Below, one piece after another: positions 44,081-63,519 of a stretch of DNA of 64,000 bases; the stretch's first letter is position 1; every line of letters starts with the position of its first letter. Below the pieces are notes generated by a model. It saw only the letters and a list, made by a program, of their open reading frames with translations. It was not told the origin of the DNA and ran no database searches. Source of the stretch: Bacteroides caccae (GTDB taxonomy: Bacteria; Bacteroidota; Bacteroidia; Bacteroidales; Bacteroidaceae). A program made the translations under genes and the position numbers. Location: assembly GCF_002222615.2 (NCBI RefSeq), contig NZ_CP022412.2:1736001-1800000 (forward strand). The letters are read 5' to 3'.

Positions 44081-44122
44081 CGTTTGCGTGCACAAAAATA
44101 GTCGTTTCCGTACACGAAAAAC
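44081..44122 (+). repeat. 22-bp-period direct repeat in the divergent uronate-gene promoter region
   Basis: Two copies, 44081-44100 and 44103-44122, share CGTTT-CGT-CAC-AAAA with about 14 of 20 positions equal. The second runs into AAAAACAAAAAATGCACC, which resembles the proximal half of the susC and pectate lyase element. A regulator binding site is likely but unproven. Confidence 0.5.
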
Positions 44123-44175
44123 AAAAAATGCACCTAGTTGATTAAAAATTCCTATCCGGTTTGGAAGAAATACAC

Positions 44176-44183
44176 TACTTTCG
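44176..44183 (+). promoter_or_regulatory. -7-like box for the GH105 operon
   Basis: TACTTTCG differs from TAnnTTTG at one position and lies 43 bases upstream of the ATG at 44227. Confidence 0.4.
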
Positions 44184-45426: not shown

Positions 45427-45429
45427 TTT

Positions 45430-46407: not shown

Positions 46408-46441
46408 GAACAGATAAGATGTCCGATCGGTTGGGGAGCTT

Positions 46442-46588
46442 GAAGCTTTTGTTTCCTAAGCTCGAAATCCTGGTTCCGAGGCGGGGAACTGTAGTTTCTC
46501 TATGTGGGAACTGGAGTTTCTGCGTGTGGAAACTAGAGTTTCTAACGCTTGAAACTAAAGTTTCAGAGCCTTGAAACTGAACTTGTTC
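46442..46588. repeat. Tandem array with 22-bp period and GAAACT/AGTTTC dyad cores, about seven units
   Basis: Units start at 46442, 46464, 46485, 46507, 46529, 46551 and 46573. Each has a 14-base dyad core of the form GAAACTnnAGTTTC followed by an 8-base spacer (7 in the second unit). Units 5 and 6 have perfect arms; units 1, 2 and 7 are degenerate. All spacers differ. It lies inside the GH105 operon between the two methylesterase genes. Immediately after it, two related 21-base units beginning CAGGTG start at 46588 and 46609. Confidence 0.85.
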
Positions 46589-46653
46589 AGGTGCAAGACA
46601 AAATGTTGCAGGTGGCAGATAAAACGAAGAAGAACTAAAAGAGCGTGAAGAAT

Positions 46654-48393
46654 ATGAAAACACTAGGGGCTAAAATGATAGGATTACTGGTAGCAGCCTT
46701 TATCCTCTGTTCCGCATTTCGTGCGGATAAACCGGTCGTAACTGTCTTTATGATAGGAGATTCTACTATGGCCAATAAGAAACTGGACGGAGGAAATCCC
46801 GAACGTGGCTGGGGAATGGTACTTCCCGGATTCTTCTCCGAGGATATCAGGATAGATAATCATGCTGCCAATGGTCGAAGTTCCAGAAGTTTTATCAGTG
46901 AAGGCCGCTGGGAAAAAGTCATTTCTAAGGTGAAAAAGGGAGATTATGTCTTTATCCAGTTCGGGCACAATGATGAAAAAGCTGATCCCACCCGCCATAC
47001 CGATCCCGGAACCACCTTCGATGATCATCTCCGTCGCTACGTGAACGAGACTCGAGCCAAAGGGGGAATCCCCGTATTGTTCAATTCCATTGTCCGCCGT
47101 AACTTTGTTCAGCCTAAGGACACTTCCATTTCAAAAGATGTCCGCCGGACACCGGGGGAAAGTGAACCGCCCAAAGAAGGAACCGTTTTATTCGATACTC
47201 ACGGAGCTTATCTGGATTCTCCGCGTAATGTGGCGAAAGAACTCAGAGTTGCATTTATTGATATGAATAAGATAACACACGACTTGGTGGAAGGACTCGG
47301 TCCGGTAGAGTCAAAGAAACTGTTCATGTTCGTCGAACCGGATCAGGTTCCCGCCTTCCCGAAAGGCCGCGAAGACAATACTCATCTGAATGTATATGGT
47401 GCACGTGTGATTGCCGGGTTGGCAGTAGAGGCAATCGGCAAAGCAGTTCCGGAACTGGCACCATATATCCGCCACTATGATTACGTGGTGGCACAAGACG
47501 GAAGCGGTGATTTCTTCACCGTTCAGGAAGCGATTAATGCGGTTCCCGATTTCCGTAAGAACATCCGTACCACGATTCTGATACGTAAAGGTACTTATAA
47601 AGAAAAGATTATCATCCCCGAAAGCAAGATTAATGTCTCCTTGATCGGAGAAGAAGGCGCGACGTTGACCAATGACGACTTCGCCAACAAGAAAAATGTA
47701 TTTGGCGAGAACATGGGAACTTCCGGTTCATCGAGCTGCTATATTTATGCACCGGACTTTTATGCAGAGAATATCACTTTTGAGAACTCCGCCGGTCCCG
47801 TCGGGCAGGCAGTTGCCTGCTTTGTCTCCGCCGACCGTGCCTTCTTCAAGAACTGCCGCTTTTTAGGTTTTCAGGATACCCTCTATACTTACGGCAAGCA
47901 AAGTCGTCAATATTATGAGGACTGTTACATCGAAGGAACAGTTGATTTCATTTTCGGTTGGTCTACGGCTGTCTTTAACCGTTGCCACATTCACAGCAAA
48001 CGGGACGGCTATGTGACCGCACCTTCTACCGACCAAGGGAAAAAGTATGGCTACGTCTTCTATGATTGTAAGCTCACCGCATCACCTGAAGCGAAGAAAG
48101 TATATCTCTCCCGTCCCTGGCGTCCGTATGCCCAAGCCGTATTTGTCCGTTGCGAACTGGGACAGCACGTCCTTCCCGAAGGCTGGAACAACTGGGGGAA
48201 GAAGGAAAACGAGAAAACTGCTTTTTATGCAGAGTATGACAGTCGTGGTGAAGGTGCCAATCCGAAGGCACGTGCCGCTTTCTCCCATCAGTTGAAAACT
48301 CTTAAAGGATATGAGATAGAAACAGTGCTGGCCGGTGATGACGGGTGGAATCCGGTAAAAAACGGAAATCATCTGTTAGATGTAAAACGTTGA
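46654..48393 (+). CDS. CE12-CE8 fusion: SGNH acetylesterase plus pectin methylesterase
   Basis: 579 residues from the ATG at 46654; an in-frame GTG at 46645 is an alternative. It has a signal peptide (MKTLGAKMIGLLVAAFILCS). The N-terminal SGNH domain (about 30-270) has FMIGDSTMANK (Ser), NHAANGRSS, IQFGHNDEKAD and NTHLN (His), the pattern of CE12 acetylesterases. The C-terminal CE8 domain (about 275-575) has GQAVACFVSADR, GFQDTLYTYG, TVDFIFGWS and LSRPWRPYAQ. One protein would thus remove both acetyl and methyl groups from pectin. It is the third gene of the GH105 operon, separated from CE8 by the repeat array. Confidence 0.92.
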   Translation: MKTLGAKMIGLLVAAFILCSAFRADKPVVTVFMIGDSTMANKKLDGGNPERGWGMVLPGFFSEDIRIDNHAANGRSSRSFISEGRWEKVISKVKKGDYVFIQFGHNDEKADPTRHTDPGTTFDDHLRRYVNETRAKGGIPVLFNSIVRRNFVQPKDTSISKDVRRTPGESEPPKEGTVLFDTHGAYLDSPRNVAKELRVAFIDMNKITHDLVEGLGPVESKKLFMFVEPDQVPAFPKGREDNTHLNVYGARVIAGLAVEAIGKAVPELAPYIRHYDYVVAQDGSGDFFTVQEAINAVPDFRKNIRTTILIRKGTYKEKIIIPESKINVSLIGEEGATLTNDDFANKKNVFGENMGTSGSSSCYIYAPDFYAENITFENSAGPVGQAVACFVSADRAFFKNCRFLGFQDTLYTYGKQSRQYYEDCYIEGTVDFIFGWSTAVFNRCHIHSKRDGYVTAPSTDQGKKYGYVFYDCKLTASPEAKKVYLSRPWRPYAQAVFVRCELGQHVLPEGWNNWGKKENEKTAFYAEYDSRGEGANPKARAAFSHQLKTLKGYEIETVLAGDDGWNPVKNGNHLLDVKR

Positions 48394-48513: not shown

Positions 48514-51500
48514 ATGATGAAGAAAACTTTACTTTCAGTGATTCTCCTGCTAGCTATTGTGTTCACGGCACATACACAGCAGCATTGCTTTTTCACCCAT
48601 TACTCTACTGAGGACGGACTGTCGCAAAATACAGTCATGAGCATTCTTCAGGACCATAAAGACAATCTTTGGTTTGCCACCTGGGATGGTATTAACCGTT
48701 TTAATGGGTACACTTTCAAAACTTACAAGGCACGACAGGGAAATTACATCAGTCTGACCAATAATCGGGCGGACCGTATGTATGAAGACCGTTACGGTTT
48801 TCTCTGGCTGTTGACCTATGACAACCGCGTTCATCGCTTTGATCCGAAAACGGAAACTTTCGAGCAAGTGCCCGCTGCCGGTGAGGAGGGGAGTGCATTC
48901 AATGTACATACCATTGAAGTAATGCCGAACGGAACTGTCTGGCTGCTGACGGAAAACGACGGTGCGATTCGCATTCTGACTCATCCCGACGAGAATCATC
49001 GGCTGACATGGGATATTTATTCCAATAAGACGGAATTGTTTCCCTCTTTACACGTGTTTAAAGTACATCAGGACAAAGCCGGTAATGACTGGCTGCTGAC
49101 AGACAACGGGTTGGGCATGATTCGTCCAGGAGACAAAGAACCTGTTTCTTATTTTACGGAAACCAAAGGAAAGCTTAGCGGAATGAACCAGGCTTTCTAT
49201 GCCGTGCAGGAGCGTGATGAGGATATTTGCTTTGCTTCGGACCACGGACGTGTCTGGGTATATCAGAAAGGAAGCGGAGAATTTGTATTGCTCGAACTTC
49301 CGACCAAAGGGCGGATCACCTCCATTCATACGGTTGCACCGGATATGTCGGTCATCACTACGGATTCGGACGGTTTCTTTACCTGTAATCTGAAAACGAA
49401 AGCATCGGTACACTATTCATTTCTGACTTGCAAGGAGTTACCTGCCAAACCCATTCTATCGGCTTATGTAGACCGTTCTTCGGAAGTCTGGTTCGAACAG
49501 GAAGAACCGGGTGTGGTAGCTCATTTCAATCCGTTTACCGGAGTAGTGACGCGTGAGCAGATTCTTATTGAATATAGTAATCCTGAACGTTCACGTCCTG
49601 CTTTTCATATCCATGAGGATGTGAACGGCTATCTGTGGGTACACCCGTATGGAGGTGGTTTCTCATATTTTGATCCTCAGAAGAAGCGGCTGGTTCCTTT
49701 TTATAACGGACTGGGCAGCCGTGACTGGCGTTTCTCCAATAAGATTCACTCGGCTTTCTCCGACAAACAAGGGAATTTGTGGATGTGTACCCATTCCAAG
49801 GGATTGGAAAAGGTGACTTACCGTAATGTTCCTTTTTCGATGATGACTCCCGTACCGCAGGAATATGAATCACTGCATAATGAGATACGTGCCCTCTGTG
49901 AAGACAAACAGGGGAATCTCTGGGTCGGTGTGAAGGACGGTATACTTCGTATATATGACGCCGATCGAACTTATAAGGGATATCTGACGGAAAACGGCAT
50001 AATTTCCACTGTCGGCACTCCCGTGAAGGGAACAGCCTATTTTATCATTCAGGATTCGAAAGGAGTGATTTGGATTGCGACAAAAGGTGACGGGCTGATC
50101 CGTGCCGAGGCAACCTCTCTTTCGGGAATGTCGTACAAGCTGACCCGTTATCTTCACCAAGAGGATGATATGTATAGCTTGAGCGATAACAATGTGTATT
50201 GTGTGTACGAAGATCATAACGGGAGAATCTGGGCGGCTACCTTTGCCGGTGGTATCAATTATCTCACGGAGAATGAGGATGGAAAGGTTTTGTTTATCAA
50301 TCACCGTAACCATTTGAAAGGTTATCCTATTGATCCCTGCTACAAGGCTCGTTTTATCACTTCCGACAATAACGGCCGTTTGTGGGTGGGAACGACGACG
50401 GGTGCCGTAGCCTTTGACGAGAATTTCGAGAAACCGGAAGATGTACAGTTCTATCACTTCTCCCGTATGCCGAACGATACACAAAGTTTGAGTAACAATG
50501 ATGTGCACTGGATTATCCCCACTACGGATAAGGAACTTTATCTGGCTACCTTTGGTGGCGGACTCAACAAACTGATCTCTATCAGTGAAGACGGACATGG
50601 GGCGTTTAAGTCTTACTCGGTGCAGGACGGGCTTCCTTCGGATGTACTGCTTTCCATTCGCGAGGACGATAAACAGAACTTATGGATTAGTACGGAGAAT
50701 GGAATCTGTAAATTCATCCCCTCCGAAGAACGGTTTGAAAGTTATGATGAGCGTAGTATAACTTTCCCAGTACGTTTTAGTGAGGCGGCTTCCACATTGA
50801 CCGCGAAAGGCAATATGCTGTTCGGTGCCAGTGGAGGGGTTTTTATCTTCAACCCGGATTCTATCCGTAAGAGTAGTTATGTGCCTCCGATCGTGTTTTC
50901 TAAATTAACAGTAGCCAATGAGGATGTTGTGCCCGGGGAACAATCGTTGTTGCAGGCAGATATTGATGATACGGAGCAGCTGGTGCTTTCGCACGATGAG
51001 AATATCTTCTCTGTACAGTTTGCAGCGCTCGATTATACCAATCCGCAGAATGTGCAGTATGCCTACATTCTGGACGGATTTGAAAAACAATGGACCTTTG
51101 CCGACAAGCAACGTAGTGTGACTTATACGAATCTTCCGAAAGGGGAGTATGTGCTTCGTGTCCGTTCTACAAACAGTGATGGTGTGTGGGTAGAGAATGA
51201 ACGTGTGCTGGATATTGTCATTCTTCCCTCGTTTTGGGAAACTCCGGTGGCATACGTACTCTATGTGCTGTTGATTCTAGTTATCATTCTTGTGGCAGTT
51301 TATATCCTGTTTACTATTTATCGGTTGAAGCATGAGGTATCCATAGAACAGCAGATTTCGGATATAAAGCTGCGTTTCTTCACTAATATTTCCCATGAAC
51401 TTCGTACGCCGCTGACGCTGATTGCGGGTCCCGTTGAACAAGTCTTGAAGAATGATAAGTTACCGGAGGACGTCCGTGAACAGTTGGTGGTGGTAGAGAG

Positions 51501-53064
51501 GAATACTAACCGTATGCTTCGTCTTGTCAATCAGATTCTGGACTTCCGCAAGATTCAGAACAAGAAGATGAAGATGCAGGTGCAACGTGTGGATGTCGTG
51601 CCCTTTGTCCGTAAGGTCATGGATAATTTCGAAGCCGTAGCCGAGGAACATCGGATTGATTTCCTGTTTGAGACGGAGAAACAGCATTTGTTTCTTTGGG
51701 TGGATGTGGATAAGTTGGAAAAGATTGTGTTTAACCTGCTTTCCAATGCTTTCAAATATACGCCGAACGGCAAGATGATTACGATTTTTATTCGTGAAGA
51801 TGAGAATACCGTTTCGATCGGTGTACAGGACCAGGGAATCGGTATTGCGGAAAACAAGAAGAAGTCGTTGTTTGTCCGCTTCGAGAATCTGGTGGATAAG
51901 AATCTTTTCAATCAGGCTAGTACGGGCATCGGGCTTTCGTTGGTAAAGGAACTTGTGGAGATGCATAAGGCTACAATTTCCGTTGACAGCCGTTTGGGAG
52001 AAGGGAGTTGTTTCAAGGTTGACTTCCTGAAAGGGAAAGAACATTATGACGAAGAAGTCGAATTTATCCTTGACGATGCGGAAGCTCCGGTAAGAATGGG
52101 GCAGGTGGTGGACATTGCCAATGCATCGCTTCAATCTGAAACTCTTGTAACGGCAGCTGGTCCGGAGTTTGAGAAATCGTCTTCGGAGGAAGAACCGTTA
52201 GCGGAAGATACTTCTAAAGAGTTAATGTTGTTAGTCGAAGATAATCAGGAGTTGCGTGAGTTTCTGCGCAGCATCTTTACTCCGGTATACAGGGTGGTGG
52301 AGGCGGCCGACGGAATGGAAGGCTGGAGTAAAGCGTTGAAGTATTTGCCGGATATTATTATCAGTGATGTGATGATGCCTGAAAAGGATGGTATCGAAAT
52401 GACACGTGAACTGCGTGCGGATATGATGACTAGCCATATACCTATTATTCTGCTTACTGCCAAGACTACTATCGAAAGCAAATTAGAAGGACTGGAGTAC
52501 GGTGCAGATGACTATATCACGAAACCTTTTAGTGCCACCTATCTGCAAGCCCGTGTAGAAAACTTGTTGATACAGCGCAAGAAACTGCAAAGTTTCTATC
52601 GCGATAGCCTGATGCATATCAACATGGCTGCTGTTCCTGAAGATCTGCCTATATCGGCAGAGGGGGAATCAAGAGAAGAAAACAGGACTGAACCGGAGCA
52701 GGAAGTACAACCTGCTGTTCCCGATATGTCTCCTAACGATCGTAAGTTTATGGATAAATTGGTGGAACTAATGGAGCAGAACATGGATAATGGCGAGTTG
52801 GTGGTGGATGATTTGGTACGCGAACTGGCTGTCAGTCGTTCGGTATTCTTCAAGAAACTGAAAACGCTTACCGGATTAGCGCCTATCGAGTTTATCAAAG
52901 AAATCCGTATTAAACGTGCTACACAATTGATTGAAACCGGAGAGTTTAATATGACGCAGATTTCATATATGGTCGGGATCAATGACCCGCGTTATTTCAG
53001 CAAATGTTTCAAGGCGCAGGTGGGGATGACGCCGACGGAGTATAAAGAGAAAGTGGGGAGATAA
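48514..53064 (+). CDS. Hybrid two-component system regulator (HTCS)
   Basis: 1516 residues. Order: signal peptide (1-21); periplasmic sensor made of Reg_prop beta-propeller repeats (about 25-785, with LWFATWDGINRFNGY and similar blades); Y_Y_Y domain (about 788-905); membrane helix (about 909-937); HisKA with ISHELRTPLTL (His961); HATPase_c (about 1060-1175, GTGIGL-type segment STGIGLSLVKEL); receiver (LLVEDNQELREF, phospho-acceptor Asp1285 in ISDVMMPEKDG, Lys in YITKPF); AraC-type DNA-binding domain (about 1429-1513). It lies between the operons of a pectin locus and probably senses a pectin oligosaccharide in the periplasm, then switches on susC and the lyases. A shared direct repeat in their promoters is its candidate target. 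Confidence 0.95.
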   Translation: MMKKTLLSVILLLAIVFTAHTQQHCFFTHYSTEDGLSQNTVMSILQDHKDNLWFATWDGINRFNGYTFKTYKARQGNYISLTNNRADRMYEDRYGFLWLLTYDNRVHRFDPKTETFEQVPAAGEEGSAFNVHTIEVMPNGTVWLLTENDGAIRILTHPDENHRLTWDIYSNKTELFPSLHVFKVHQDKAGNDWLLTDNGLGMIRPGDKEPVSYFTETKGKLSGMNQAFYAVQERDEDICFASDHGRVWVYQKGSGEFVLLELPTKGRITSIHTVAPDMSVITTDSDGFFTCNLKTKASVHYSFLTCKELPAKPILSAYVDRSSEVWFEQEEPGVVAHFNPFTGVVTREQILIEYSNPERSRPAFHIHEDVNGYLWVHPYGGGFSYFDPQKKRLVPFYNGLGSRDWRFSNKIHSAFSDKQGNLWMCTHSKGLEKVTYRNVPFSMMTPVPQEYESLHNEIRALCEDKQGNLWVGVKDGILRIYDADRTYKGYLTENGIISTVGTPVKGTAYFIIQDSKGVIWIATKGDGLIRAEATSLSGMSYKLTRYLHQEDDMYSLSDNNVYCVYEDHNGRIWAATFAGGINYLTENEDGKVLFINHRNHLKGYPIDPCYKARFITSDNNGRLWVGTTTGAVAFDENFEKPEDVQFYHFSRMPNDTQSLSNNDVHWIIPTTDKELYLATFGGGLNKLISISEDGHGAFKSYSVQDGLPSDVLLSIREDDKQNLWISTENGICKFIPSEERFESYDERSITFPVRFSEAASTLTAKGNMLFGASGGVFIFNPDSIRKSSYVPPIVFSKLTVANEDVVPGEQSLLQADIDDTEQLVLSHDENIFSVQFAALDYTNPQNVQYAYILDGFEKQWTFADKQRSVTYTNLPKGEYVLRVRSTNSDGVWVENERVLDIVILPSFWETPVAYVLYVLLILVIILVAVYILFTIYRLKHEVSIEQQISDIKLRFFTNISHELRTPLTLIAGPVEQVLKNDKLPEDVREQLVVVERNTNRMLRLVNQILDFRKIQNKKMKMQVQRVDVVPFVRKVMDNFEAVAEEHRIDFLFETEKQHLFLWVDVDKLEKIVFNLLSNAFKYTPNGKMITIFIREDENTVSIGVQDQGIGIAENKKKSLFVRFENLVDKNLFNQASTGIGLSLVKELVEMHKATISVDSRLGEGSCFKVDFLKGKEHYDEEVEFILDDAEAPVRMGQVVDIANASLQSETLVTAAGPEFEKSSSEEEPLAEDTSKELMLLVEDNQELREFLRSIFTPVYRVVEAADGMEGWSKALKYLPDIIISDVMMPEKDGIEMTRELRADMMTSHIPIILLTAKTTIESKLEGLEYGADDYITKPFSATYLQARVENLLIQRKKLQSFYRDSLMHINMAAVPEDLPISAEGESREENRTEPEQEVQPAVPDMSPNDRKFMDKLVELMEQNMDNGELVVDDLVRELAVSRSVFFKKLKTLTGLAPIEFIKEIRIKRATQLIETGEFNMTQISYMVGINDPRYFSKCFKAQVGMTPTEYKEKVGR

Positions 53065-53171: not shown

Positions 53172-54761
53172 TTATGGCAGCCAGCGCGGGTCACCAAAAC
53201 CATAACTCTGATAAAGTTCATCAGTGATAGTGAAATCAGCCTTATCCGGGTTGGCGAACGGATTGTTCTCAAGAACATTTCCTTCTGTGTCGAAGCACGT
53301 TACTGTTGTGTCCGTATTGCCTTCAGCCAATGAGATCAAGTTCTTACAGTTGTGGTAATAATTGTTCGAGTAGGTTGGCTTTCCTACGGCACTTGAGTTG
53401 GCAAAGCCGCGTTTGTTGTTGAAGTTGGCAATTACGTTGTTGGTAAACGTGTTGGTGTTACCCTTGAATCGCAGATAGAAGAAGCGATAGTTGGCTTCAC
53501 CGTTACCTACATTATAGAATGTACATTTATCAATCGAAGTTACCATGTTTGCAGTTACGCTGTTTGATGCGTCATCGGCACGTAGTACGTCCCGTTTGGA
53601 GGCGGAGTTATAGATTGTGGAACTTGAAATGGTGAGATTGTTCCAACCACCTTTACGGCTATCAATAAAGTCACCACCGTCACACACGATATCATGAATG
53701 AGGGAGTTTTCTATCTTGATAGTATTTGGTACTGCTGCAACATTGATGTAAATAAGTCCTTTAATATAGTTTCTTATTTCACACCCGTTAATGGTAAGGT
53801 CACCGAATCCTCCTTCTTTTTTGTATTCAATAGCCTGACTGCCATCAGTATTCGTTCCATCTAACACAACCTGATAGAGATAGAGTGAAGCGCCGTTATA
53901 GATATGGATACAAGTGTTGATTACCGGTGGCTCAGCAGAATTCTTAGCAGCAATGACTACATTGTTATTAATTTGTAATTTGGCTGCTGTCAGCACATAT
54001 TCACCGGCTGCAAGAGCAAACTTACTGCCTGGTGTTGCATCTTGAATAGCAGAAACCCAATCGTCAGCAGGAGTAAGTTCGATAGCATCACTCAAATCCA
54101 GATTAGTGGTGAAAGTAGAATAACCACGAGTCTTTTCACCTAACTTCAATGTAGCTCTGTAATTGGTTTCCGGTGTAAGACCTGTGATAGTGGCGGAGCC
54201 GGAAGATATGTCGGTTGAATTCAGCGTATACGTCACAGTATTGGCACTGGAGTTTGCGGTAGTAGGAGCACAGATGACAGCATCGACCTCAATACCCGGT
54301 GTCCATGTTACTTTTACAGAAGTGCTCTGAATGTCACCGGCTTTTACCTTTTTCATGTTCTGTTCGGGGTTGGTTGTACGCTTGATGTCAACCCATTTGG
54401 ATGTGCGGGAAGAATTGTTTTCATCAATGGCTCTTACGCGGATGTAATAATCAGTCTCTCCGATAAGATTGGTTAAAGTCTTTTCGGTTAAAGTTGTGGT
54501 ATATGAGGCATCCGGTGTACGTTGGTCATAGTCGGGACTGTCCGCATAAACTTCAAGTTCGTAAGAGGTAGCTCCTGACATTTCATTCCAACTGACAATG
54601 ATGTTTACTTCCTGTGAAATACGTGCAGTGATGCCGGTTGGCGACAAGACACGATTAAGAACTAAATCATTGATATCATCTGGTTCACTACATGATGTCA
54701 CTGCAACACTACCCAGGCAAACGGCAGCTAATGTACAAATTGATAGTATATATTTTTTCAT
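53172..54761 (-). CDS. SusE-position surface lipoprotein with FN3 domains and beta-helix (DUF5123/DUF4957-like)
   Basis: 529 residues. The lipobox is VAVTSCSEPDD (Cys24), and the acidic residues after it fit surface export. Two FN3-like domains follow (about 35-130, with IIVSWNEMSGATSYELEVYA, and about 138-225). A C-terminal parallel beta-helix (about 245-500, with LTINGCEIRNYIKG, NLTISSSTIYNSAS and TSIDKCTFYNVGN) ends in FGDPRWLP, the typical end of DUF5123 proteins. Position after susD is that of SusE/F-type glycan-binding proteins. Binding of homogalacturonan is likely. Weak lyase activity, as in beta-helix pectate lyases, cannot be excluded, but no catalytic site is obvious. Confidence 0.82.
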   Translation of the reverse strand: MKKYILSICTLAAVCLGSVAVTSCSEPDDINDLVLNRVLSPTGITARISQEVNIIVSWNEMSGATSYELEVYADSPDYDQRTPDASYTTTLTEKTLTNLIGETDYYIRVRAIDENNSSRTSKWVDIKRTTNPEQNMKKVKAGDIQSTSVKVTWTPGIEVDAVICAPTTANSSANTVTYTLNSTDISSGSATITGLTPETNYRATLKLGEKTRGYSTFTTNLDLSDAIELTPADDWVSAIQDATPGSKFALAAGEYVLTAAKLQINNNVVIAAKNSAEPPVINTCIHIYNGASLYLYQVVLDGTNTDGSQAIEYKKEGGFGDLTINGCEIRNYIKGLIYINVAAVPNTIKIENSLIHDIVCDGGDFIDSRKGGWNNLTISSSTIYNSASKRDVLRADDASNSVTANMVTSIDKCTFYNVGNGEANYRFFYLRFKGNTNTFTNNVIANFNNKRGFANSSAVGKPTYSNNYYHNCKNLISLAEGNTDTTVTCFDTEGNVLENNPFANPDKADFTITDELYQSYGFGDPRWLP

Positions 54762-54783: not shown

Positions 54784-56640
54784 TTAATACCACTCGTAAT
54801 TAGAAAGATTAGGATTATCATTCAAGTTGACGTTAAAGATAGGCCAGTATTGATATTTGTCTGGGTCGCGAACATAGAGATAGTCAATAACATCTTCCAG
54901 GGCATTATCTTTGATCCAAGTGGATGCTTCGCCCTTACTGTCTGAAAATTCGGTATAGCCTTCCGGATTAATATCCATTTCACCATAGTTCAGACCGTAA
55001 AGGTTCAGTTTTGCATCCTTTTCGGTAGTCTCTATACCATTACGAGTCCAGGTATATGCGCTCATTTTATAATATGCATGGCCTGATAGCTGGCTGTAAG
55101 GATGTTTAGAATCATAATCGGTCAAACTCACAATAGCTTTCATCTTGTTTTTTGTCTCGTCCATTTTACTTTTCAACATTCCCCAACGGATAAGATCAGC
55201 TTTACGGATCAGTTCTCCGGCAAACTCATAAGCTCTCTCGTCAACAATTGCCTGGAACATCTTTTCTTTACTGAGAGCTGCTTCTGCAACATAAGCTGTA
55301 ACTTCTGTTGCACGGTCGGAGGTCGCAAAAGCGCGGTTGCGAATCTTAGTCAGGTAAGGAACGGCAGCAGATGCACCATTCAATTCGTTTTCCAGTTCGG
55401 CGCGCATCAGTACGATGTCGGCATAACGCATATATTGTCTGTTGATACCGTCATCGTTTCCGGTAGGAATCATACGGTTCGTCCATTCATAACGCAACTT
55501 TCCGAAACTCCAGCTTTTGAAAGACTGAAGAGTTTGTACGCCTTTTGTCCATTGGAATGGGCAGCAAGTTATATCACGGCGCAAGTCCTTTACTGAATAG
55601 TCAAAGAAGAAAGTTGGTGTAGGACCAACCTGGCTTCCCTGAAGCATGGTTGTCATATTGTCGGCAGTGGTATGCTTGATACCGAAAGTGTACATGATAC
55701 GTCCGCGTGCGGGGTTATTGCTATAACCTATCTCGAACAATGATTCACTGCCTGCATTGATAACATCTCCTGAGATTCCGTTGTTGTTGAAGATATCTTC
55801 AAAATTTGATTTCAAAGCCACGTAAGTGCCTTCCTGTTCCATTACATCTTTACAAGCTTGCAGTGCGATAGGGTAGAGACGTGTTTTGGATAGTTCCGGA
55901 TCCGTACTTAAACGGTTTTCTCCGTCAAGACGCTGAGCGTAGCCGGATGCTTGCAGGCATACGCGGGCCAGGAGACCTTTTACGAAGACTTTGTTCACGC
56001 GTTCCACTGTTTGTGTGGCGTCTATCTCATTAGGCCACGCGCAAAGGTCTTGTGCCTCTTGCAAATCAATGATGAGCTGCTTGTAGATGACATCACGGTC
56101 TTCGCGTCCTGAATACATATTGTCGGCGTTCAATGAAGTCAGGCGTGCGGGAACATCTCCCCACATATTAATCAGGTCAATATAATGTAAGGCACGTAGC
56201 GTGAGCGCTTCCCCCAACAATTGTTTCATATTGGCATTTGTCAGGTCTGCATATTCACGAAGACCTTCAATAGCCAGATTGGCACGTTCGATAGCGGCAT
56301 ATATCTTAGCCCAAAGGTCGGTCCCGGTACTGGTGTTCATTTGATCGTTTCCGACTCCGGCATTGTATGTTGCCAAGTCTGCCTTTCCGTCGGCCTTGTC
56401 CGAACTGTTATAGTATTCTATATCTGTATTGTATCCATACCAAATGGCACGTGCACGATAGTTTTGCTCTCCAAATTCCTGATAGATATTGGCAATGGTG
56501 CCTTGTGCATATTCATAAGTACTGAAAATGTTCTTACCGTCTAAAGATGAAGGAGAACTTTGATCTAAGAAATCACTGCAAGAAAACAGACTAGCAAGAA
56601 GGGCGACAGCTGTCAATGATTTAATCGTTATATTTTTCAT
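54784..56640 (-). CDS. SusD-like starch-binding-type surface lipoprotein
   Basis: 618 residues with lipobox LASLFSCSDFLDQ (Cys21). The mainly helical sequence shows SusD marks: FSTYEYAQGTIANIYQ, LLGEALTLRALHYIDLINMWGDVP, RYADIVLMRAELENELNGASAAVPYLTKIRNRA and ERAYEFAGELIRKADLIRWG in segments. It forms the lid of the SusC channel and binds pectin fragments. It starts 12 bases after susC. Confidence 0.95.
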   Translation of the reverse strand: MKNITIKSLTAVALLASLFSCSDFLDQSSPSSLDGKNIFSTYEYAQGTIANIYQEFGEQNYRARAIWYGYNTDIEYYNSSDKADGKADLATYNAGVGNDQMNTSTGTDLWAKIYAAIERANLAIEGLREYADLTNANMKQLLGEALTLRALHYIDLINMWGDVPARLTSLNADNMYSGREDRDVIYKQLIIDLQEAQDLCAWPNEIDATQTVERVNKVFVKGLLARVCLQASGYAQRLDGENRLSTDPELSKTRLYPIALQACKDVMEQEGTYVALKSNFEDIFNNNGISGDVINAGSESLFEIGYSNNPARGRIMYTFGIKHTTADNMTTMLQGSQVGPTPTFFFDYSVKDLRRDITCCPFQWTKGVQTLQSFKSWSFGKLRYEWTNRMIPTGNDDGINRQYMRYADIVLMRAELENELNGASAAVPYLTKIRNRAFATSDRATEVTAYVAEAALSKEKMFQAIVDERAYEFAGELIRKADLIRWGMLKSKMDETKNKMKAIVSLTDYDSKHPYSQLSGHAYYKMSAYTWTRNGIETTEKDAKLNLYGLNYGEMDINPEGYTEFSDSKGEASTWIKDNALEDVIDYLYVRDPDKYQYWPIFNVNLNDNPNLSNYEWY

Positions 56641-56652: not shown

Positions 56653-59600
56653 TTAGAAGTTTAAGTTAAGACCTATTACAAACTGGCGGCTCTTCGGGTA
56701 TGCAGAGTAGTCTACTCCCGGAGTAAGAGCTGTTTTGTTTCGGGTGGAAACTTCAGGGTCGAAGCCTGAATAACCGGTCAGACAAAATACATTATAACAT
56801 GTGGCGTAGAAACGCAAATTGTTAATACCCACTTTTCTAGTCAGGGACTGCGGTAGAGTATAACCTACTGTTAATGTAGACAGACGTAGGAAGGAGCCAT
56901 CTTCAACAGCCCAGTCGGTCAATACATAACTGGTATAGGGTGACCACATGGTAGTATTGGCGTTTAATGCAGCCAACTGTGCGGGATCGTTTACCAAGTT
57001 TCCGTTGGCGTCAAGGTTTGTCCAACGTTTGCCTTCGGCCATAATGTCGATCATGTTACGGTAATAGTATTGATAGGACGAAGTATATTCAATCTTATTG
57101 GCATTATAAACGTCATTACCGATACTGTAAGTGAAGTTTGCACTCAAATCAAAACCATATACGCGACCTGAAAGGGCGAAACCACCACTGGCTTTAGGAT
57201 TGGTATTACCGATAACGGTACGGTCTTTTTCATCAATGACATTGTCACTGTCGTCTATATTCTTCAGTTTTAAGGCACCCGGACGGAGATAACTGGCACC
57301 GATAACACCTGCATTGCTTGCTACATCTTGTTTCAATACCCATTTTTCACCGCTGGCATAATAGTCTTCAAAGTCACTTACTTCATAACGTCCGGCAGTT
57401 ACATATCCGTAGATCTCACCTACTGAATGGCCTGGTTTCACGATGAAGTCATCCTGAATCTGTGTTGAGGCCCAACCGGATGATGCCGGATATTGTGATA
57501 ATGTACCCAGGTTCTTTACTTTGTTTTTATTGAAACCTACGTTACCATTGAAGCTCAGCTCATAGTTTTTCTTGCTGATGATGTTCCAGGTAAGAGATAT
57601 TTCAAAACCTTTGTTCTCAGTCTTACCGAGGTTGCGGTACTGGTAGTCATAACCGGAACCGGAAACAGGGAATGCGATTAGTAAATCTTTAGTCGTATTC
57701 TTATAATATTCGATGCTACCGGTCAGCTTGCCACCGAATAAGGTATAATCCAAACCAACGTTACGGGTAACGGTCGTTTCCCATTTCAAGTCCGGATTGG
57801 ATGCGTAGGAACCACTTTGACCTGAGGCAATGCCGCTTGTCCAATAAGAAGGGAATTGATTGAGCCAAGTAGTAGAACCGGAAGACCATACGGGAGAAGT
57901 CTGGTCGGCGGGAATATTGTTATTACCTGCGGTACCATAAGAAAAACGTATTTTCAAATCATCAAGCCAATTCTGGGTCTTCTCCATGAACTTTTCTGAG
58001 GAAATACGCCATGCTACGGCAGCTGAAGGGAAATACCCCCAACGATTGCCTTTAGAGAATTTGGAAGAACCATCGGCACGGAATGTACCGCTAATCAAAT
58101 ATTTGCTTTGGAAATCGTAATTGACACGTCCGAAGTAGGAAAGCAAGTTGTCGTCTGCGTTAGTATATTTGTCTACACTATAAGGAGTACCTTGTGAAGA
58201 CAAGGCCCAAGCCTGAGAAGCAGTAAAGCTGACAGGAAAGAAGCTCAGACGGTCATCATTCAATGAACTTTTTTTATTGATAGTCTCTTCACCAACCAAT
58301 ACATTCAGGTTGTGGTCTTTATTCTTGATGATATCTTTGAAGTTGTAATTTACTGTATTGGTATTGCGGAAAGTCTTACGCTGCGTGTCGGCAAAATAAG
58401 CCATCGGATGAACACCTTCTGTATCGGAACTGTTGGTACGTGCATTGTAAGTACTTGGACCATAATATTTCTTATCGGTATTGTAGTACCAGTCCAGACC
58501 GAACTCTGTTTTGAACTTGAAGTTCTTGAAGATTTCCCATGAAAAGCTTCCATTCATGTTGAAAGTCTGACGGTTCTGCTTGCGGTCCGTGTCATATACT
58601 GATGTAATCGGGTTTGTCAACTGAAAATCCGGGTCATAACTGTCACTCAAATCAGGAAAGTTAAACATCGGGTAGATCATAACGTTCTTCATGCGTGAGT
58701 CGGCTGAAGATACTTCACTCTTGCTTTCATTGGCACCTGCACCGTTTACTGTGGTATTGGCATAACGCATAGAGAAGTCGAGGCTGACTTTATCATTCAC
58801 CTTGTGGTTAAGTTTTAAGCTTAAATTATCACGTCGGAAAGAAGACCCCAGCATGATAGCTTTGTCATTCATGTGGGCATATCCCATGTTGAATTTAGTT
58901 TTGTCCGAACCACCGCTAATTGTCAAGCTATGATTGAAGGTATTTCCTGTACGGCCGAATACTTGGTCTTGCCAGTCATTGGTTGGGGCGTTTTCATACA
59001 AGTCTGCATCTTGCCAGTTGCCGAAAAGACTGGTAAATTTGCTTTCATTACCTCTCAACAAGGCGTATTCTCTTTGCCATTTTACGTAATCAGTTGCGCT
59101 CAATGTCTCCAAGGTCTTTGCCATTTTTTTCCAGGAATAGTAGGTATTATAAGATACACTCAGTTTTCCTTCCTTTCCGCTTTTAGTCGTTACCAGGATT
59201 ACACCGTTTGCACCGCGAGAACCGTAAATAGCTGTAGAAGATGCATCTTTCAGTACAGTCATATCCTCAATATCGGATGCGGGAATGTCGCTGATAGACT
59301 CTACCGGGAAACCGTCTACGATAAACAGCGGAGTATTGTCACCTGTGATAGAACCACCACCACGTACGCGAATCTTCATTTCTGCGTCAGGAGAACCTTC
59401 GGTAGTGGTGATTTGTACACCCGCCATTTTACCTTGCAAGGCTTCTGTTGCCGAAGCTACGGGAACGGCGCTCAATACTTCGGAACTAACCGTAGCAACG
59501 GAACCTGTGATATCTTTCCGTTTGGCTGTACCATAGCCGATAACAACGACTTCATCTAATGCTTTGGTGTCGTCAGACAAAGTTACGTCGATTTTGTTTT

Positions 59601-59877
59601 TTCCTTTGATTGCAATTTCTTGTGTCTTCATACCGATGTATGAAACAATAAGAGTGGCATTGGCAGGAACTTTGAGAGAGAAATCACCATCCAGATTGGT
59701 AATCGTACCATTGGAGGTATTTCCTTTTTCTACGATGGAAGCACCGATAATTGGATCTCCGGTTGCATCTTTCACATTACCGGTTGCGGTAATAGTCTGC
59801 GCTGATACGCTTAGCGAAAAAACTGCTAATATCATTAGCAGTAAAACTCGCATGTTTTTCATTCTTTTAGACATCAT
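56653..59877 (-). CDS. SusC-like TonB-dependent oligosaccharide transporter
   Basis: 1074 residues from the ATG at 59877. The open frame runs 33 codons further, but that part overlaps the -7 box at 59941-59948. After the signal peptide (MRVLLLMILAVFSLSVSAQ) comes a carboxypeptidase-like domain (about 28-105, GDPIIGASIVEKGNTSNGT). The TonB-box and plug region begins DEVVVIGYGTAKRKDITGS (about 110), and KDASSTAIYGSRGANGVILV is the usual SusC plug motif. The barrel ends in VIGLNLNF. It imports pectic oligosaccharides across the outer membrane with the SusD protein encoded next. It is the first gene of a three-gene operon. Confidence 0.95.
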   Translation of the reverse strand: MMSKRMKNMRVLLLMILAVFSLSVSAQTITATGNVKDATGDPIIGASIVEKGNTSNGTITNLDGDFSLKVPANATLIVSYIGMKTQEIAIKGKNKIDVTLSDDTKALDEVVVIGYGTAKRKDITGSVATVSSEVLSAVPVASATEALQGKMAGVQITTTEGSPDAEMKIRVRGGGSITGDNTPLFIVDGFPVESISDIPASDIEDMTVLKDASSTAIYGSRGANGVILVTTKSGKEGKLSVSYNTYYSWKKMAKTLETLSATDYVKWQREYALLRGNESKFTSLFGNWQDADLYENAPTNDWQDQVFGRTGNTFNHSLTISGGSDKTKFNMGYAHMNDKAIMLGSSFRRDNLSLKLNHKVNDKVSLDFSMRYANTTVNGAGANESKSEVSSADSRMKNVMIYPMFNFPDLSDSYDPDFQLTNPITSVYDTDRKQNRQTFNMNGSFSWEIFKNFKFKTEFGLDWYYNTDKKYYGPSTYNARTNSSDTEGVHPMAYFADTQRKTFRNTNTVNYNFKDIIKNKDHNLNVLVGEETINKKSSLNDDRLSFFPVSFTASQAWALSSQGTPYSVDKYTNADDNLLSYFGRVNYDFQSKYLISGTFRADGSSKFSKGNRWGYFPSAAVAWRISSEKFMEKTQNWLDDLKIRFSYGTAGNNNIPADQTSPVWSSGSTTWLNQFPSYWTSGIASGQSGSYASNPDLKWETTVTRNVGLDYTLFGGKLTGSIEYYKNTTKDLLIAFPVSGSGYDYQYRNLGKTENKGFEISLTWNIISKKNYELSFNGNVGFNKNKVKNLGTLSQYPASSGWASTQIQDDFIVKPGHSVGEIYGYVTAGRYEVSDFEDYYASGEKWVLKQDVASNAGVIGASYLRPGALKLKNIDDSDNVIDEKDRTVIGNTNPKASGGFALSGRVYGFDLSANFTYSIGNDVYNANKIEYTSSYQYYYRNMIDIMAEGKRWTNLDANGNLVNDPAQLAALNANTTMWSPYTSYVLTDWAVEDGSFLRLSTLTVGYTLPQSLTRKVGINNLRFYATCYNVFCLTGYSGFDPEVSTRNKTALTPGVDYSAYPKSRQFVIGLNLNF

Positions 59878-59940: not shown

Positions 59941-59948
59941 CAAAAATA
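59941..59948 (-). promoter_or_regulatory. -7 box for the susC operon
   Basis: The minus strand reads TATTTTTG, a full match, 63 bases upstream of the ATG at 59877. It also shows that the longer susC frame is not used. Confidence 0.65.
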
Positions 59949-59969
59949 AGTCATCGACAGCGCTATCTA

Positions 59970-60005
59970 TGTGCAATAATTGTTTTTATCATGGGAAATA
60001 TTGTT
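59970..60005 (-). promoter_or_regulatory. Candidate HTCS operator upstream of susC (21-bp direct repeat)
   Basis: In coding orientation: AACAATA (60005-59999), then 14 bases, then AACAATTATTGCACA (59984-59970). The two AACAA half-sites are 21 bp apart. Thirty bases separate the proximal half-site from the -7 box. The same element precedes both pectate lyase genes. Confidence 0.65.
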
Positions 60006-60025
60006 TTTCCACCTCTGAGTAACAA

Positions 60026-60060
60026 AAAAGCGGAAGTATTGCTATATACTTTCCGCTTTT
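60026..60060 (-). terminator. Terminator of the minus-strand pectate lyase gene
   Basis: AAAAGCGGAA pairs with TTCCGCTTTT and GTAT with ATAC, with one bulged base. On the minus strand it ends in six T, 36 bases after the lyase stop and just before the susC promoter. Confidence 0.75.
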
Positions 60061-60095
60061 CCTGTGTCTGTTTGGAAGTGTTATGTGTCAAAATT

Positions 60096-61616
60096 CTATT
60101 TCTTTGTGGGGAATAAATGATTGACCAGATTGTTCATATATACTTCCAGATTTGTGTATTCCGGACTTAAACTATACTTAGTACCATCGGCAGGGTCGTT
60201 CGGATCCAAATTATTTTTCTTTTCCCATTCATCCGGCATACCGTCACCATCGGTATCGACTAAAGTTACTTCCGATTTATATTCTGGCCATCCTCCTACA
60301 TCCGATGGCTGGTCTATCATGCCGTTGGTGCTACCGTGGGAACCTTCATAAGTATAATTACCTTTGCGGGTTTCTTCTACAATGCGTTTGTCTATTATGT
60401 CACGACGATACGAAGCACCGGCATATTCGAGCACGTCTTTATATGCTTTTTTCGCAGATTGCAAGGAAGTACGTTCGGCTATATTGAAAGCTTTAGAGGA
60501 CAACAACTTTTTTTCAGGTGCAAAGTCGTTCTTGATTACCAGTCCGTAGGCATTGTCTCTGTTCACTTTGTAAAGAGCTTCTTTTTGTTTATCGGTGAGT
60601 TTAGAACAAGTAGGGTCCATATAATTACCATTAAAGTAGAATATACCGTGGACACCGGCTTCATTCTTATTCGTTCCATCGTCGGCGTATGCGGTAAACA
60701 AACGTTTAAAAGAACCTTTTGTAGCGCTGAAAGGTCCCGGTTTATAATAGTTGTTAATGAAATTGTAGGAACCTCCTTCGCCGGCATAAGCTCCGTCACT
60801 ACCATAATTATAGATTACATTATTGAATAAATCAACTTTTTCTTCTTCCGGTTTACCAGTATAGCGGCTTCCGCAAAGACGAGGAGTACGGTTGGTGTGA
60901 TGAGCCAATAAGTTGTGATGAAAAGTTGCAGTCTGTCCTCCCCAAATGCCTCCATAGCCGTGAGCTCCTTTTTCATGAATGGAGTTGGCAAGGCTTTCGC
61001 TGATGATGCACCATTGGAGAGTGAAATTGCGATTATTATAAAAAGTGGCGCATTCATCGGTACTCCAACTCATGGAGCAGTGGTCAATGATAATATTTTG
61101 GTGGTTTTTGATGCCGTTCATAGCGTCGTCTCCTTTTTGTTTGATGTCAACTCCCATGCGTGAGCGGATAAAACGGACAATTACATTGTCGGCTTGAATG
61201 GAGAAAGTATAGTTTTTTAGGCAGATACCGTCACCTGGAGCTGTTTGTCCGGCAATGGTTAGGTCTCCATTGTTGACTCTCAGAGGTTTTTGCAGCTCTA
61301 TGATTCCGTCTACTGCAAAAACGATTGTGCGAGTACCTTTTTGGTTGATAGCCCAACGGAAAGTTCCTTCGGAACCGTCATCGGCTAGTGAAGTCACTAT
61401 ATATACAGTACCTCCGGCACCTCCTGTTGTATACTTTCCGGCACCATCTGCTCCGGGAAAAGCTATAATTTTGTTTCGATCAGGGGTCGGATAGTCTTTC
61501 TTCTCATTATTGACACTTTTATTATCCTGTATATCAATGGATATATAGGTTGTCGCACTTACCATTATAGGTATAGTGAGTAAAATGCACAGTGCTGCCG
61601 GTAGTTTTTTATTCAT
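60096..61616 (-). CDS. Pectate lyase, PL1 family, exported
   Basis: 506 residues with a cleavable signal peptide (ALCILLTIPIMVSATT). The beta-helix catalytic region (about 50-390) includes AFPGADGAGKYTTGGAGG, TIAGQTAPGDGICLK, IIIDHCSMSWSTDECATFY and PRLCGSRYTGK, the last holding candidate catalytic Arg residues. The C-terminal VDTDGDGMPDEWEKK is a calcium-binding, thrombospondin-3/EF-hand-like loop common in Bacteroides lyases. It cleaves de-esterified homogalacturonan by beta-elimination. It lacks a lipobox, unlike its divergent paralogue, so it is probably periplasmic or released. It has its own operator, promoter and terminator. Confidence 0.9.
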   Translation of the reverse strand: MNKKLPAALCILLTIPIMVSATTYISIDIQDNKSVNNEKKDYPTPDRNKIIAFPGADGAGKYTTGGAGGTVYIVTSLADDGSEGTFRWAINQKGTRTIVFAVDGIIELQKPLRVNNGDLTIAGQTAPGDGICLKNYTFSIQADNVIVRFIRSRMGVDIKQKGDDAMNGIKNHQNIIIDHCSMSWSTDECATFYNNRNFTLQWCIISESLANSIHEKGAHGYGGIWGGQTATFHHNLLAHHTNRTPRLCGSRYTGKPEEEKVDLFNNVIYNYGSDGAYAGEGGSYNFINNYYKPGPFSATKGSFKRLFTAYADDGTNKNEAGVHGIFYFNGNYMDPTCSKLTDKQKEALYKVNRDNAYGLVIKNDFAPEKKLLSSKAFNIAERTSLQSAKKAYKDVLEYAGASYRRDIIDKRIVEETRKGNYTYEGSHGSTNGMIDQPSDVGGWPEYKSEVTLVDTDGDGMPDEWEKKNNLDPNDPADGTKYSLSPEYTNLEVYMNNLVNHLFPTKK

Positions 61617-61680
61617 GCTCTTTCTTTAGTTGATTATTGTTTTGATATGGAACTTTATTCTGATTTTCGTTTTAATGGCG

Positions 61681-61688
61681 TAAAGGTA
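61681..61688 (-). promoter_or_regulatory. -7-like box for the minus-strand pectate lyase gene
   Basis: The minus strand reads TACCTTTA, one base off TAnnTTTG, 64 bases upstream of the ATG at 61616. Its distance from the repeat element equals that in the two related promoters. Confidence 0.5.
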
Positions 61689-61708
61689 TGAATATTTAGG
61701 TAGCTACG

Positions 61709-61744
61709 TGTGTAATAATTGTTATTCGCATAGTATTTATTGTT
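61709..61744 (-). promoter_or_regulatory. Candidate HTCS operator upstream of the minus-strand pectate lyase gene
   Basis: In coding orientation: AACAATA (61744-61738), 14 bases, then AACAATTATTACACA (61723-61709). The half-sites are 21 bp apart and 29 bases separate the proximal one from the -7 box. Confidence 0.65.
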
Positions 61745-61785
61745 ATTTGAAACTTGTCTTTTTTTTAATTCAACCATAATTAATC

Positions 61786-61821
61786 AACAATAAATACAAA
61801 GTGAAAAACAAATATTGCACA
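61786..61821 (+). promoter_or_regulatory. Candidate HTCS operator upstream of the plus-strand pectate lyase gene
   Basis: AACAATA (61786-61792), 14 bases, then AACAAATATTGCACA (61807-61821). The period is 21 bp, with 29 bases from the proximal half-site to the -7 box. It faces the opposite way from the element at 61709-61744. Confidence 0.65.
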
Positions 61822-61841
61822 TGAGTATATTTCTGTTTCCA

Positions 61842-61849
61842 TACTTTTG
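61842..61849 (+). promoter_or_regulatory. -7 box for the plus-strand pectate lyase gene
   Basis: TACTTTTG is a full TAnnTTTG match, 53 bases upstream of the ATG at 61903. Confidence 0.6.
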
Positions 61850-61902: not shown

Positions 61903-63519
61903 ATGAAAAGACTAATAAAAGGACAACTTGTTATTTGGGTTTATAAAGAAAATATATTGGGAATTATGTTGTCGGCTTTCCTTTTTGGGGGAGTAGTTGC
62001 CTGTTCGGATGAACAGGCAACAGAAAAACAGTTGACAGATGAATCGGGGCTACCGGAATATCCTATCCCCGACCGTACCACCATTGTTGCTTTTCCGGGA
62101 GCTTATGGTGCCGGAAAGTATACAACAGGAGGTGCGGGAGGTACTGTATATATAGTGACTTCATTAGCTGATGATGGGGTGGTGGGTACTTTACGTCATG
62201 CTATACAGCAGAAGGGAAGACGTACAATAGTCTTTGCAGTCGGAGGAGTGATCGAATTGCAGAAACAACTAGTTATCACCAACGATGACATTACTATTGC
62301 AGGTCAAACAGCTCCGGGTAAGGGAATCTGTTTGAAGGACAACACTTTGCGGGTGAATGCCAATAATGTAATTATTCGTTTCCTCCGTTGTCGTATGGGA
62401 GATGAAAAACGAATAGAGGATGATGCGATGAATGGTTATCAGAATAATTATCCCGGAAAGCAGAATATTATTATTGACCATTGTTCCATGAGTTGGAGCA
62501 CTGATGAATGTGCCTCATTTTATGGGAATACTAATTTTACAATGCAGTGGTGTATTCTCAGCGAAAGCTTGTGGCATTCGATACATGAAAAAGAGGCTCA
62601 TGGTTATGGTGGAATATGGGGTGGCTCACCTGCCACATTCCATCATAATTTGTTGGCTCATCACAGTAATCGGACTCCGCGTCTTTGTGGAAGTCGTTAT
62701 TCGAATCGGGCAGATGTGGAAAAGGTGGACTTATGTAATAATGTAATTTATAATTGGACTAATGAAGGTGCTTATGGAGCTCAGGGAGGTTATTACAATA
62801 TTATGAATAACTATTATAAACTAGGTCCTGCTTCCGCCAAGGATAAAACCCATGCACGTTTTTTCACCGCTTATATAGATGATGGAAAGAATGCCCAAGA
62901 TGCCGGAGTATTTGGTTACTTTTATGTGAATGGCAATATAATGGACAATACATGTGTGGACTTGTCAGGCGAACAGCAGAAGGAGATTGCCAGCGCCAAC
63001 GCCAATAATATTTCTTCTACTGCATTCAAGGTAAAGAATGACGAAAGAACATCTTCTGACTTATTGTTGGACATGCGCATTGATATCCTTTCTGATTACA
63101 GTTTTATGCAATCTGCTACAGACGCTTACGAAACTGTGCTGGCGTATGCAGGGGCATGGACATGTGGCTGGAAGGATAATAAGTATATCATTCCGGAGCG
63201 AGATAAGATTGATAGGCGTATTGTAAGTGAAACTGCTAATGGCACTTATAGTACTAATGCATCTAAAGGTGGTGGATATGGTTTGATAGACAGTCAGGAG
63301 GATACTATAGAAAAGTGGGACGAATATATAACTGCAACCTCTTCTCTTGTCGATACAGACAAGGACGGTATACCGGACGAATGGGAAATAGCAAAAGGCT
63401 TAAATCCTAATGATGCGTCTGACGGGGCGAAGTATAATTTGAGTGCTGCTTATACAAATCTAGAGGTGTATCTGAATGGCTTGGTGGAGAATACTTTTCC
63501 GGCAAGTCATTCCAAATAA
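61903..63519 (+). CDS. Pectate lyase, PL1 family, lipoprotein
   Basis: 538 residues. The N terminus ends in a lipobox, FGGVVACSDEQ (Cys34), and the SDE after the Cys fits surface export. The catalytic region parallels that of the divergent gene: AFPGAYGAGKYTTGGAGG, IAGQTAPGKGICLKD, IIIDHCSMSWSTDECASFY and PRLCGSRYSNR. The C terminus has the same type of calcium loop (VDTDKDGIPDEWEIAKG). The two are clear paralogues that differ in anchoring, so this one probably works at the cell surface while the other acts elsewhere. The start is set by the -7 box and the ATG at 61903; an internal Met at residue 22 would shorten the signal. Confidence 0.9.
   Translation: MKRLIKGQLVIWVYKENILGIMLSAFLFGGVVACSDEQATEKQLTDESGLPEYPIPDRTTIVAFPGAYGAGKYTTGGAGGTVYIVTSLADDGVVGTLRHAIQQKGRRTIVFAVGGVIELQKQLVITNDDITIAGQTAPGKGICLKDNTLRVNANNVIIRFLRCRMGDEKRIEDDAMNGYQNNYPGKQNIIIDHCSMSWSTDECASFYGNTNFTMQWCILSESLWHSIHEKEAHGYGGIWGGSPATFHHNLLAHHSNRTPRLCGSRYSNRADVEKVDLCNNVIYNWTNEGAYGAQGGYYNIMNNYYKLGPASAKDKTHARFFTAYIDDGKNAQDAGVFGYFYVNGNIMDNTCVDLSGEQQKEIASANANNISSTAFKVKNDERTSSDLLLDMRIDILSDYSFMQSATDAYETVLAYAGAWTCGWKDNKYIIPERDKIDRRIVSETANGTYSTNASKGGGYGLIDSQEDTIEKWDEYITATSSLVDTDKDGIPDEWEIAKGLNPNDASDGAKYNLSAAYTNLEVYLNGLVENTFPASHSK

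Follow-up and report, generated by a model that had tools for sequence, protein, structure and literature searches.

For 16 hybrid two-component system (HTCS) regulons, operators have been predicted on the basis of 11 genomes to be direct repeats, on average 21 bp apart (Ravcheev et al. 2013, PMC3878776). For HTCS_Rgu-1 of B. thetaiotaomicron (BT4111, BT4124), the prediction consists of two 12-bp sites separated by a 9-bp spacer, and the regulon combines pectin genes with an operon at a distant location, BT4187-85, described as providing xylose side-chain removal and main-chain cleavage. Here we analyze candidate operators of this kind in a pectin locus of Bacteroides caccae (RefSeq assembly GCF_002222615.2, contig NZ_CP022412.2). 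The locus lies in a stretch of 64,000 nucleotides (positions 1,736,001 to 1,800,000 of the forward strand), which is referred to as the window and whose own coordinates are used unless genome coordinates are indicated.

In the locus BT4108-23, which is induced most by homogalacturonan, loss of BT4111, but not loss of BT4124, reduced growth on homogalacturonan to 11.6% of that of the wild type (PMC3243724). Phosphorylated BT4124-RR at high concentration shifts the bt4114 (susC) promoter in an electrophoretic mobility shift assay (EMSA), and the S/CHIP motif has been linked to a contact between the receiver and the helix-turn-helix domain that suppresses binding until phosphorylation (PMC11253607). 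The text consulted of PMC12125979 describes a Vibrio regulator, and that of PMC12596196 and PMC6874557 holds nothing on the motif of the window. The novelty implied by an original prediction for the window is not supported, because PMC3878776 had already predicted direct repeats for HTCS regulons, spaced 21 bp apart on average, and those of this regulator were among them.

Three promoters of the pectin locus share a candidate operator

The original prediction placed a shared direct repeat, at a fixed distance from a promoter box, upstream of a susC-like gene and of two divergently transcribed pectate lyase-like genes (a and b).

59970..60005, minus strand: candidate HTCS operator of the susC operon; distal half AACAATATTTCC, 9-bp spacer, proximal half AACAATTATTGCACA
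59941..59948, minus strand: -7 box of the susC promoter, TATTTTTG, 36 bp from the start of the proximal half-site
61709..61744, minus strand: candidate HTCS operator of pectate lyase-like gene a
61681..61688, minus strand: -7-like box of lyase gene a, TACCTTTA, at +35; the final base is A, not G
61786..61821, plus strand: candidate HTCS operator of pectate lyase-like gene b
61842..61849, plus strand: -7 box of lyase gene b, TACTTTTG, at +35

All three 36-mers are present in the sequence exactly at the predicted coordinates and strands, the period from AACAAW to AACAAW is 21 bp in each, and the proximal half reads AACAAWTATT(G/A)CACA. The box distances given earlier as 30, 29 and 29 bases from the end of AACAAW are equivalent to 36, 35 and 35 bp from the first base of the proximal half-site. 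The description of the box as TAnnTTTG was correct for susC and lyase gene b and not for lyase gene a, where TACCTTTA carries the terminal A, so that TAnnTTT(G/A) covers all three.

This similarity exceeds chance: with up to 3 mismatches, the window contained three matches, whereas 100 shuffled versions had 0.01 on average. At the same tolerance, the three sites were the sole matches in the genome (4,570,803 bases), and a reversed control pattern had 1 match. Matches did not accumulate at unrelated genes, and the best extra match to a wider pattern precedes genes with GH28, DUF4861 and GH43 domains. Because the search pattern was derived from these three sites, independent support must come from the genomes of relatives.

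We consider that the sites are very probably operators of the HTCS encoded at 48514-53064 in the same locus, with a rough probability of 0.93. The evidence for this reading is the uniqueness of the sites in the genome, the occurrence of the motif only where this HTCS is encoded, a peak at the 9-bp spacer, placement ahead of leading genes, the -7 box at +35 or +36, conservation of the recognition helices, and the literature summarized above.

Co-occurrence of the motif and the HTCS gene

In order to evaluate the link between the motif and the regulator, both were searched for in 95 genomes of the genus that were at least 90% complete, the genome of the window included. With up to 2 mismatches, 70 sites were detected in 53 of the 95 genomes, and the reversed pattern was detected in none. 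An HTCS at least 50% identical to that of the window was encoded in 64 genomes (up to five candidates were scored per genome, and matches of at least 50% identity rank first). Of the 64 genomes that encode the HTCS, 53 have a site, compared to 0 of the 31 that lack it. Most sites (56/70) share a contig with the HTCS gene, and 50 of these are within 30 kb of it. The 2-mismatch pattern was used for these counts; a genus scan with up to 3 mismatches (matches in 94 of 149 genomes) was noisy, and the reversed control also matched in many genomes.

The sites precede leading genes of the locus

The position of the motif was analyzed in 41 of 43 loci from relatives, excluding L045 and L046 (22 to 23% identity). 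When the 170 bp upstream of each recognized gene start were scored with a weight matrix, scores of at least 19 were found upstream of the GH88/105 gene (19/20), the susC-like gene (14/21) and the major facilitator superfamily (MFS) transporter gene (9/17). No such score was found upstream of the genes for KduI (0/12), the EIIC-GAT permease (0/12), CE8 (0/14), esterase-CE8 (0/27), SusD (0/20), the fn3/DUF protein (0/16) or HTCS-type proteins (0/41), or in shuffled upstream regions (0/1040). One KduI upstream region scored 17.3, without a box. The 50 sites of relatives that scored at least 19 are all located outside open reading frames (ORFs) of 150 aa or more.

The susC-like genes behind the motif are only 28 to 63% identical to that of the window. 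Retention of the operator while these genes diverge so widely ties the motif to the regulator rather than to the transporter. In a scan of spacers from -5 to 31 bp in the 41 loci, 44 pairs scoring at least 20 were found at 9 bp and at most 8 at any other spacer, the 9-bp spacer having been part of the matrix training.

Lyase genes in six of the relatives' loci are arrayed on one strand, together with susC-susD or a further lyase gene. The divergent pair in the window, with its own operators, therefore looks like a rearrangement in the lineage of the window. The conservation in relatives on which the original prediction depended is seen for the motif, only in genomes that encode the HTCS, and is lacking for the two lyase promoters.

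The HTCS regulator

48514..53064, plus strand: HTCS gene, 1516 aa
52744..53052, plus strand: DNA-binding domain of the HTCS, residues 1411-1513, the presumed reader of the operators

As had been predicted, the locus contains an HTCS gene with an AraC-type output domain. The protein consists of a Reg_prop sensor followed by Y_Y_Y, HisKA, HATPase_c, receiver and AraC-type HTH_18 domains, with a SHIP motif at residue 1307. In an alignment of 37 HTCS proteins (the window and 36 others; five loci with a straight translation of 1300 aa or less were excluded), mean identity to the HTCS of the window was 86% in the DNA-binding domain compared to 65% in the sensor. Of the recognition-helix stretches, SRSVFFKKLK is invariant and NDPRYFSKCFK nearly so, and the SHIP motif is present in 36 of the 37 proteins, the exception being that of L028.

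The HTCS probably corresponds to BT4111 (HTCS_Rgu-1) of B. thetaiotaomicron. The features compared were the domain layout and, against the B. thetaiotaomicron gene order, the gene neighborhood, and both fit BT4111. With an E value of 1e-180 or lower, the genome of the window has one HTCS match, which fits BT4111 as the working regulator; since no second homologue was found at this threshold, the genome probably has no BT4124 counterpart. Three proteins of relatives were regarded as BT4124-like because of their position approximately 30 to 45 kb from the main HTCS and of the B. thetaiotaomicron gene order. Their DNA-binding domains are 53 to 56% identical to that of the window HTCS and have similar helices. 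The solved HTCS receiver-helix-turn-helix structure PDB 12aw (chain A) is by eye very similar to these three proteins and has a helix-turn-helix that appears nearly identical to that of the BT4124-like protein of L104, and on the basis of this likeness chain A is probably BT4124 or a close relative. Five HTCS-like genes of the genome among the matches listed contain a stop, including L066 (genome 1897216-1899696) and L070 (genome 2851641-2852837); they are possibly decayed regulators.

Evidence against the operator reading and alternative explanations

Several points weigh against the assignment of the sites to this HTCS. The association across genomes has a Fisher P of 4e-16, a value that is inflated by the relatedness of the genomes and overstates their independence. 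The 2-mismatch pattern was widened after a genus scan and was thus not blind to the sites; the HTCS search was independent. No site was detected at this tolerance in 11 of the 64 genomes with the HTCS. Fourteen of the 70 sites are on other contigs than the HTCS gene, and every assembly concerned consists of about 70 contigs or more. Of the 56 same-contig sites, 6 are more than 30 kb away, including two in G040 at 0.6 and 2.1 Mb on one contig. Because the matrix was trained on the same 41 loci, its absolute scores are favorable; the difference between leading and internal genes was no part of the training. A site scoring at least 19 is present in only 28 of the 41 loci, and none was found upstream of lyase gene a (0/5) or lyase gene b (0/3), so that the lyase operators are not conserved. 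The literature is also mismatched, in that the EMSA was performed with BT4124 and genetics implicates BT4111.

Some loci are shortened by contig ends; 9 of the 41 are without a match of at least 14 and 13 without one of at least 19. The susC promoters of L019, L021 and L029 have a weaker match (13.5 to 14.4), with the box still at +35, which makes degeneration of the motif a likely explanation for at least some of the genomes that encode the HTCS and have no site.

Some other regulator that coregulates pectin genes, either an HTCS paralogue or a stand-alone AraC-family protein, might bind the sites instead. The genome of the window encodes many HTCS-like proteins, the protein studied in the EMSA of PMC11253607 was not BT4111, and some sites in relatives, such as those in G040, are far from the HTCS gene. 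However, none of the 31 genomes without this HTCS has a site, no second homologue was found in the window's genome at an E value of 1e-180 or lower, and the DNA-binding domains of 12 paralogues in that genome are 34 to 43% identical to that of the window HTCS, with recognition helices that differ by eye. Thus, it seems unlikely that another regulator accounts for the sites.

The three promoters could also resemble each other as recent duplicates of one ancestral promoter, with no selection for an operator. Both lyase genes match the same solved structure and are divergently transcribed, and the distal half-sites of their operators are identical. However, pairwise identity among the three promoters is 25 to 43% in the upstream flank, in the 20 bp that precede the -7 box and in the leader, 56% in the 9-bp spacer, and 50 to 75% in the -7 octamer, compared to 75 to 100% in the half-sites. 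The promoters thus share little outside the motif and the -7 box, which argues against duplication, and the motif also precedes unrelated genes and distantly related susC-like genes. Promoter duplication was rejected on the flank identities and is very improbable.

A fixed distance between the operator and the -7 box

Bacteroides promoters have been described with TAnnTTTG in the -7 region and TTTG around -33 (PMC7366714). The -7 box played no role in any site search. Of 82 matches scoring at least 14 in the relatives and the window, 27 below 19 were excluded and 55 were kept, representing 46 distinct sites. A box (score of at least 5.5 out of 7, offsets 34 to 36) was present at +35 in 39 and at +36 in 4 of these, or 43 of 46; the three distinct sites without a box are in L011, L037 and L044. 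With a stricter box score of at least 6 and offsets from 15 to 74, 34 boxes were at +35 and 4 at +36, and no other offset had more than 2. Among the 82 matches, 11 lie inside a recognized gene, and some of those excluded are intergenic with a box at +35 or +36 (L021, L032, L039).

The 20 bp between the operator and the -7 box carry little information and no conserved TTTG. Under the labels of PMC7366714, the conserved CACA of the proximal half falls at the -33 place, a position obtained by arithmetic and not measured. The 43 sites have the geometry of a class II-type activator site, which overlaps the -33/-35 region: their distance to the -7 box is fixed, and the proximal half lies over the upstream promoter element. 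That the motif is itself a -33 element of the core promoter or an AT-rich activating tract, and not a regulator site, might be suggested by the fixed distance and the CACA at the -33 place but is hardly credible given only three genome copies (up to 3 mismatches), the 21-bp duplication and the link to the HTCS.

The fixed distance from operator to -7 box was not found in print in the open-access literature, surveyed mostly superficially and without supplements. A generality trial covered the 20-kb regions around 20 HTCS-type genes of the genome and four further stretches. When 15-mers 21 bp apart were compared upstream of TAnnTTTG-like boxes for 16 susC-like ORFs, the susC of the window scored 9/15, L088 scored 10/15 and several others scored 7 or 8. 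The L088 match is a purine-rich stretch near the start codon, and the comparison fails to discriminate, so that it neither extends nor refutes the rule. We advance only tentatively, at somewhat less than even odds, the idea that a two-turn, head-to-tail HTCS dimer replaces the -33 element as an obligate partner of the Bacteroides housekeeping sigma factor. Its proximal half-site would be held exactly 35 bp from the -7 box, with the conserved CACA at -33, and this geometry, in addition to the 21-bp repeat, would define HTCS promoters generally.

Additional sites in the locus and elsewhere in the genome

The wider pattern adds two matches in the genome, at 41376-41411 in the window and at 1852935-1852970 in genome coordinates, and a weight matrix refined on the 41 loci and the window revealed one more. 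None of the three was part of the original prediction for the window, and all share its geometry, with a -7-like box at +35.

44120..44155, plus strand: fourth candidate operator; distal half consensus-like, proximal half degenerate; precedes GH88/105-pectinesterase genes; found with the refined matrix
44176..44183, plus strand: -7-like box TACTTTCG, +35 from the proximal half of the fourth operator
41376..41411, minus strand: fifth candidate operator; 3 mismatches to the wider pattern; precedes an MFS transporter gene
41348..41355, minus strand: -7-like box GACCTTTG, +35 from the proximal half of the fifth operator
Genome 1852935-1852970, minus strand: distant site approximately 55 kb away; 2 mismatches; TATCTTTG exactly 35 bp on

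The genes behind the distant site are those with GH28, DUF4861 and GH43 domains. Two weak matches in the window, at 20289 (score, 15.5) and 14476 (14.6), have no box at +35 or +36. The candidate sites thus precede genes for surface lyases, SusCD and esterases, as well as those for a transporter of the inner membrane and a distant GH28 protein.

The genes behind the sites in the window, with operons assigned from gene order only, are as follows.

56653..59874, minus strand: susC-like TonB-dependent transporter gene
54784..56640, minus strand: susD-like gene
53172..54761, minus strand: fn3/DUF4957/DUF5123 protein gene, the presumed last gene of the susC operon
60096..61616, minus strand: pectate lyase-like gene a; match to PDB 9buj, E value 4e-78; no pectate lyase Pfam match
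61903..63519, plus strand: pectate lyase-like gene b; match to PDB 9buj, E value 2.1e-75; no Pfam match
44227..48393, plus strand: GH88/105-family, pectinesterase and GDSL-esterase/pectinesterase genes, downstream of the fourth operator
39867..41315, minus strand: MFS transporter gene, downstream of the fifth operator

A gap of 237 bp precedes the GDSL-esterase/pectinesterase gene, and its cotranscription with the GH88/105 and pectinesterase genes is presumed. Between the two pectinesterase genes (46480-46580) there is what appears by eye to be an imperfect tandem array of near-palindromic units such as GGAACTNNAGTTTCT. The gene for an EIIC-GAT family permease adjoins the KduI gene (41572-43927), and a transposase gene is located approximately 5 kb past lyase gene b (L102 8885-10540).

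The HTCS of the window and that of B. congonensis (L030) share 93% identity. The SusC, SusD and fn3/DUF proteins are approximately 29 to 45% identical to those encoded beside the HTCS genes of L030 and L004, and the SusC of the window shares 62% identity with the SusC of B. faecis (L008). Possibly the regulator was retained and the susCD module beside it was exchanged.

Proposed mechanism of activation

From the sequence we infer the following scheme. The periplasmic domain of the HTCS would sense a pectin-derived oligosaccharide, leading to phosphorylation of the receiver. Two AraC-type domains would next occupy the same face of the DNA in a head-to-tail arrangement, each on a half-site of 12 to 15 bp (AACAAWWAWTRC with or without a terminal ACA), with the half-sites 21 bp, or two helical turns, apart. 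Since the proximal half starts 35 bp (36 bp for susC) upstream of the -7 box, it covers the position where a -33 element is missing, and the HTCS bound there would recruit RNA polymerase with the housekeeping sigma factor. A single regulator could in this way switch on uptake by SusCD, surface cleavage by the pectate lyases, de-esterification and the steps that act on unsaturated uronides. The same HTCS may also activate inner-membrane transport and the distant GH28 operon.

The sites would then make up a conserved operator set for one pectin regulator, with a simple rule: 12 bp, a 9-bp spacer, 15 bp, and 20 bp to the -7 box. This rule could aid in finding more HTCS targets and in building pectin-inducible promoters in gut Bacteroides.

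Comparison with known systems

An operator of this kind has already been predicted, and in part tested, in a close relative; the +35 geometry is the sole detail that was not found in print. The EMSA with BT4124-RR and the bt4114 promoter concerned the same kind of polysaccharide utilization locus, the same class of susC target, and an HTCS with the same domain layout and SHIP motif, but BT4124 is a paralogue. Other HTCS operators among the 16 regulons of PMC3878776 resemble those of the window in being direct repeats that are, on average, 21 bp apart.

The closest described system is HTCS_Rgu-1. Unlike HTCS_Rgu-1, which has two regulators, the genome of the window encodes one such HTCS, and lyase genes a and b have their own divergent operators. 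Both systems have 12-bp sites, a 9-bp spacer and a period of 21 bp. Compared by domain content rather than gene by gene, both also include lyases, an esterase, susCD and a distant operon, and the description of the distant HTCS_Rgu-1 operon fits the GH28-DUF4861-GH43 genes found here.

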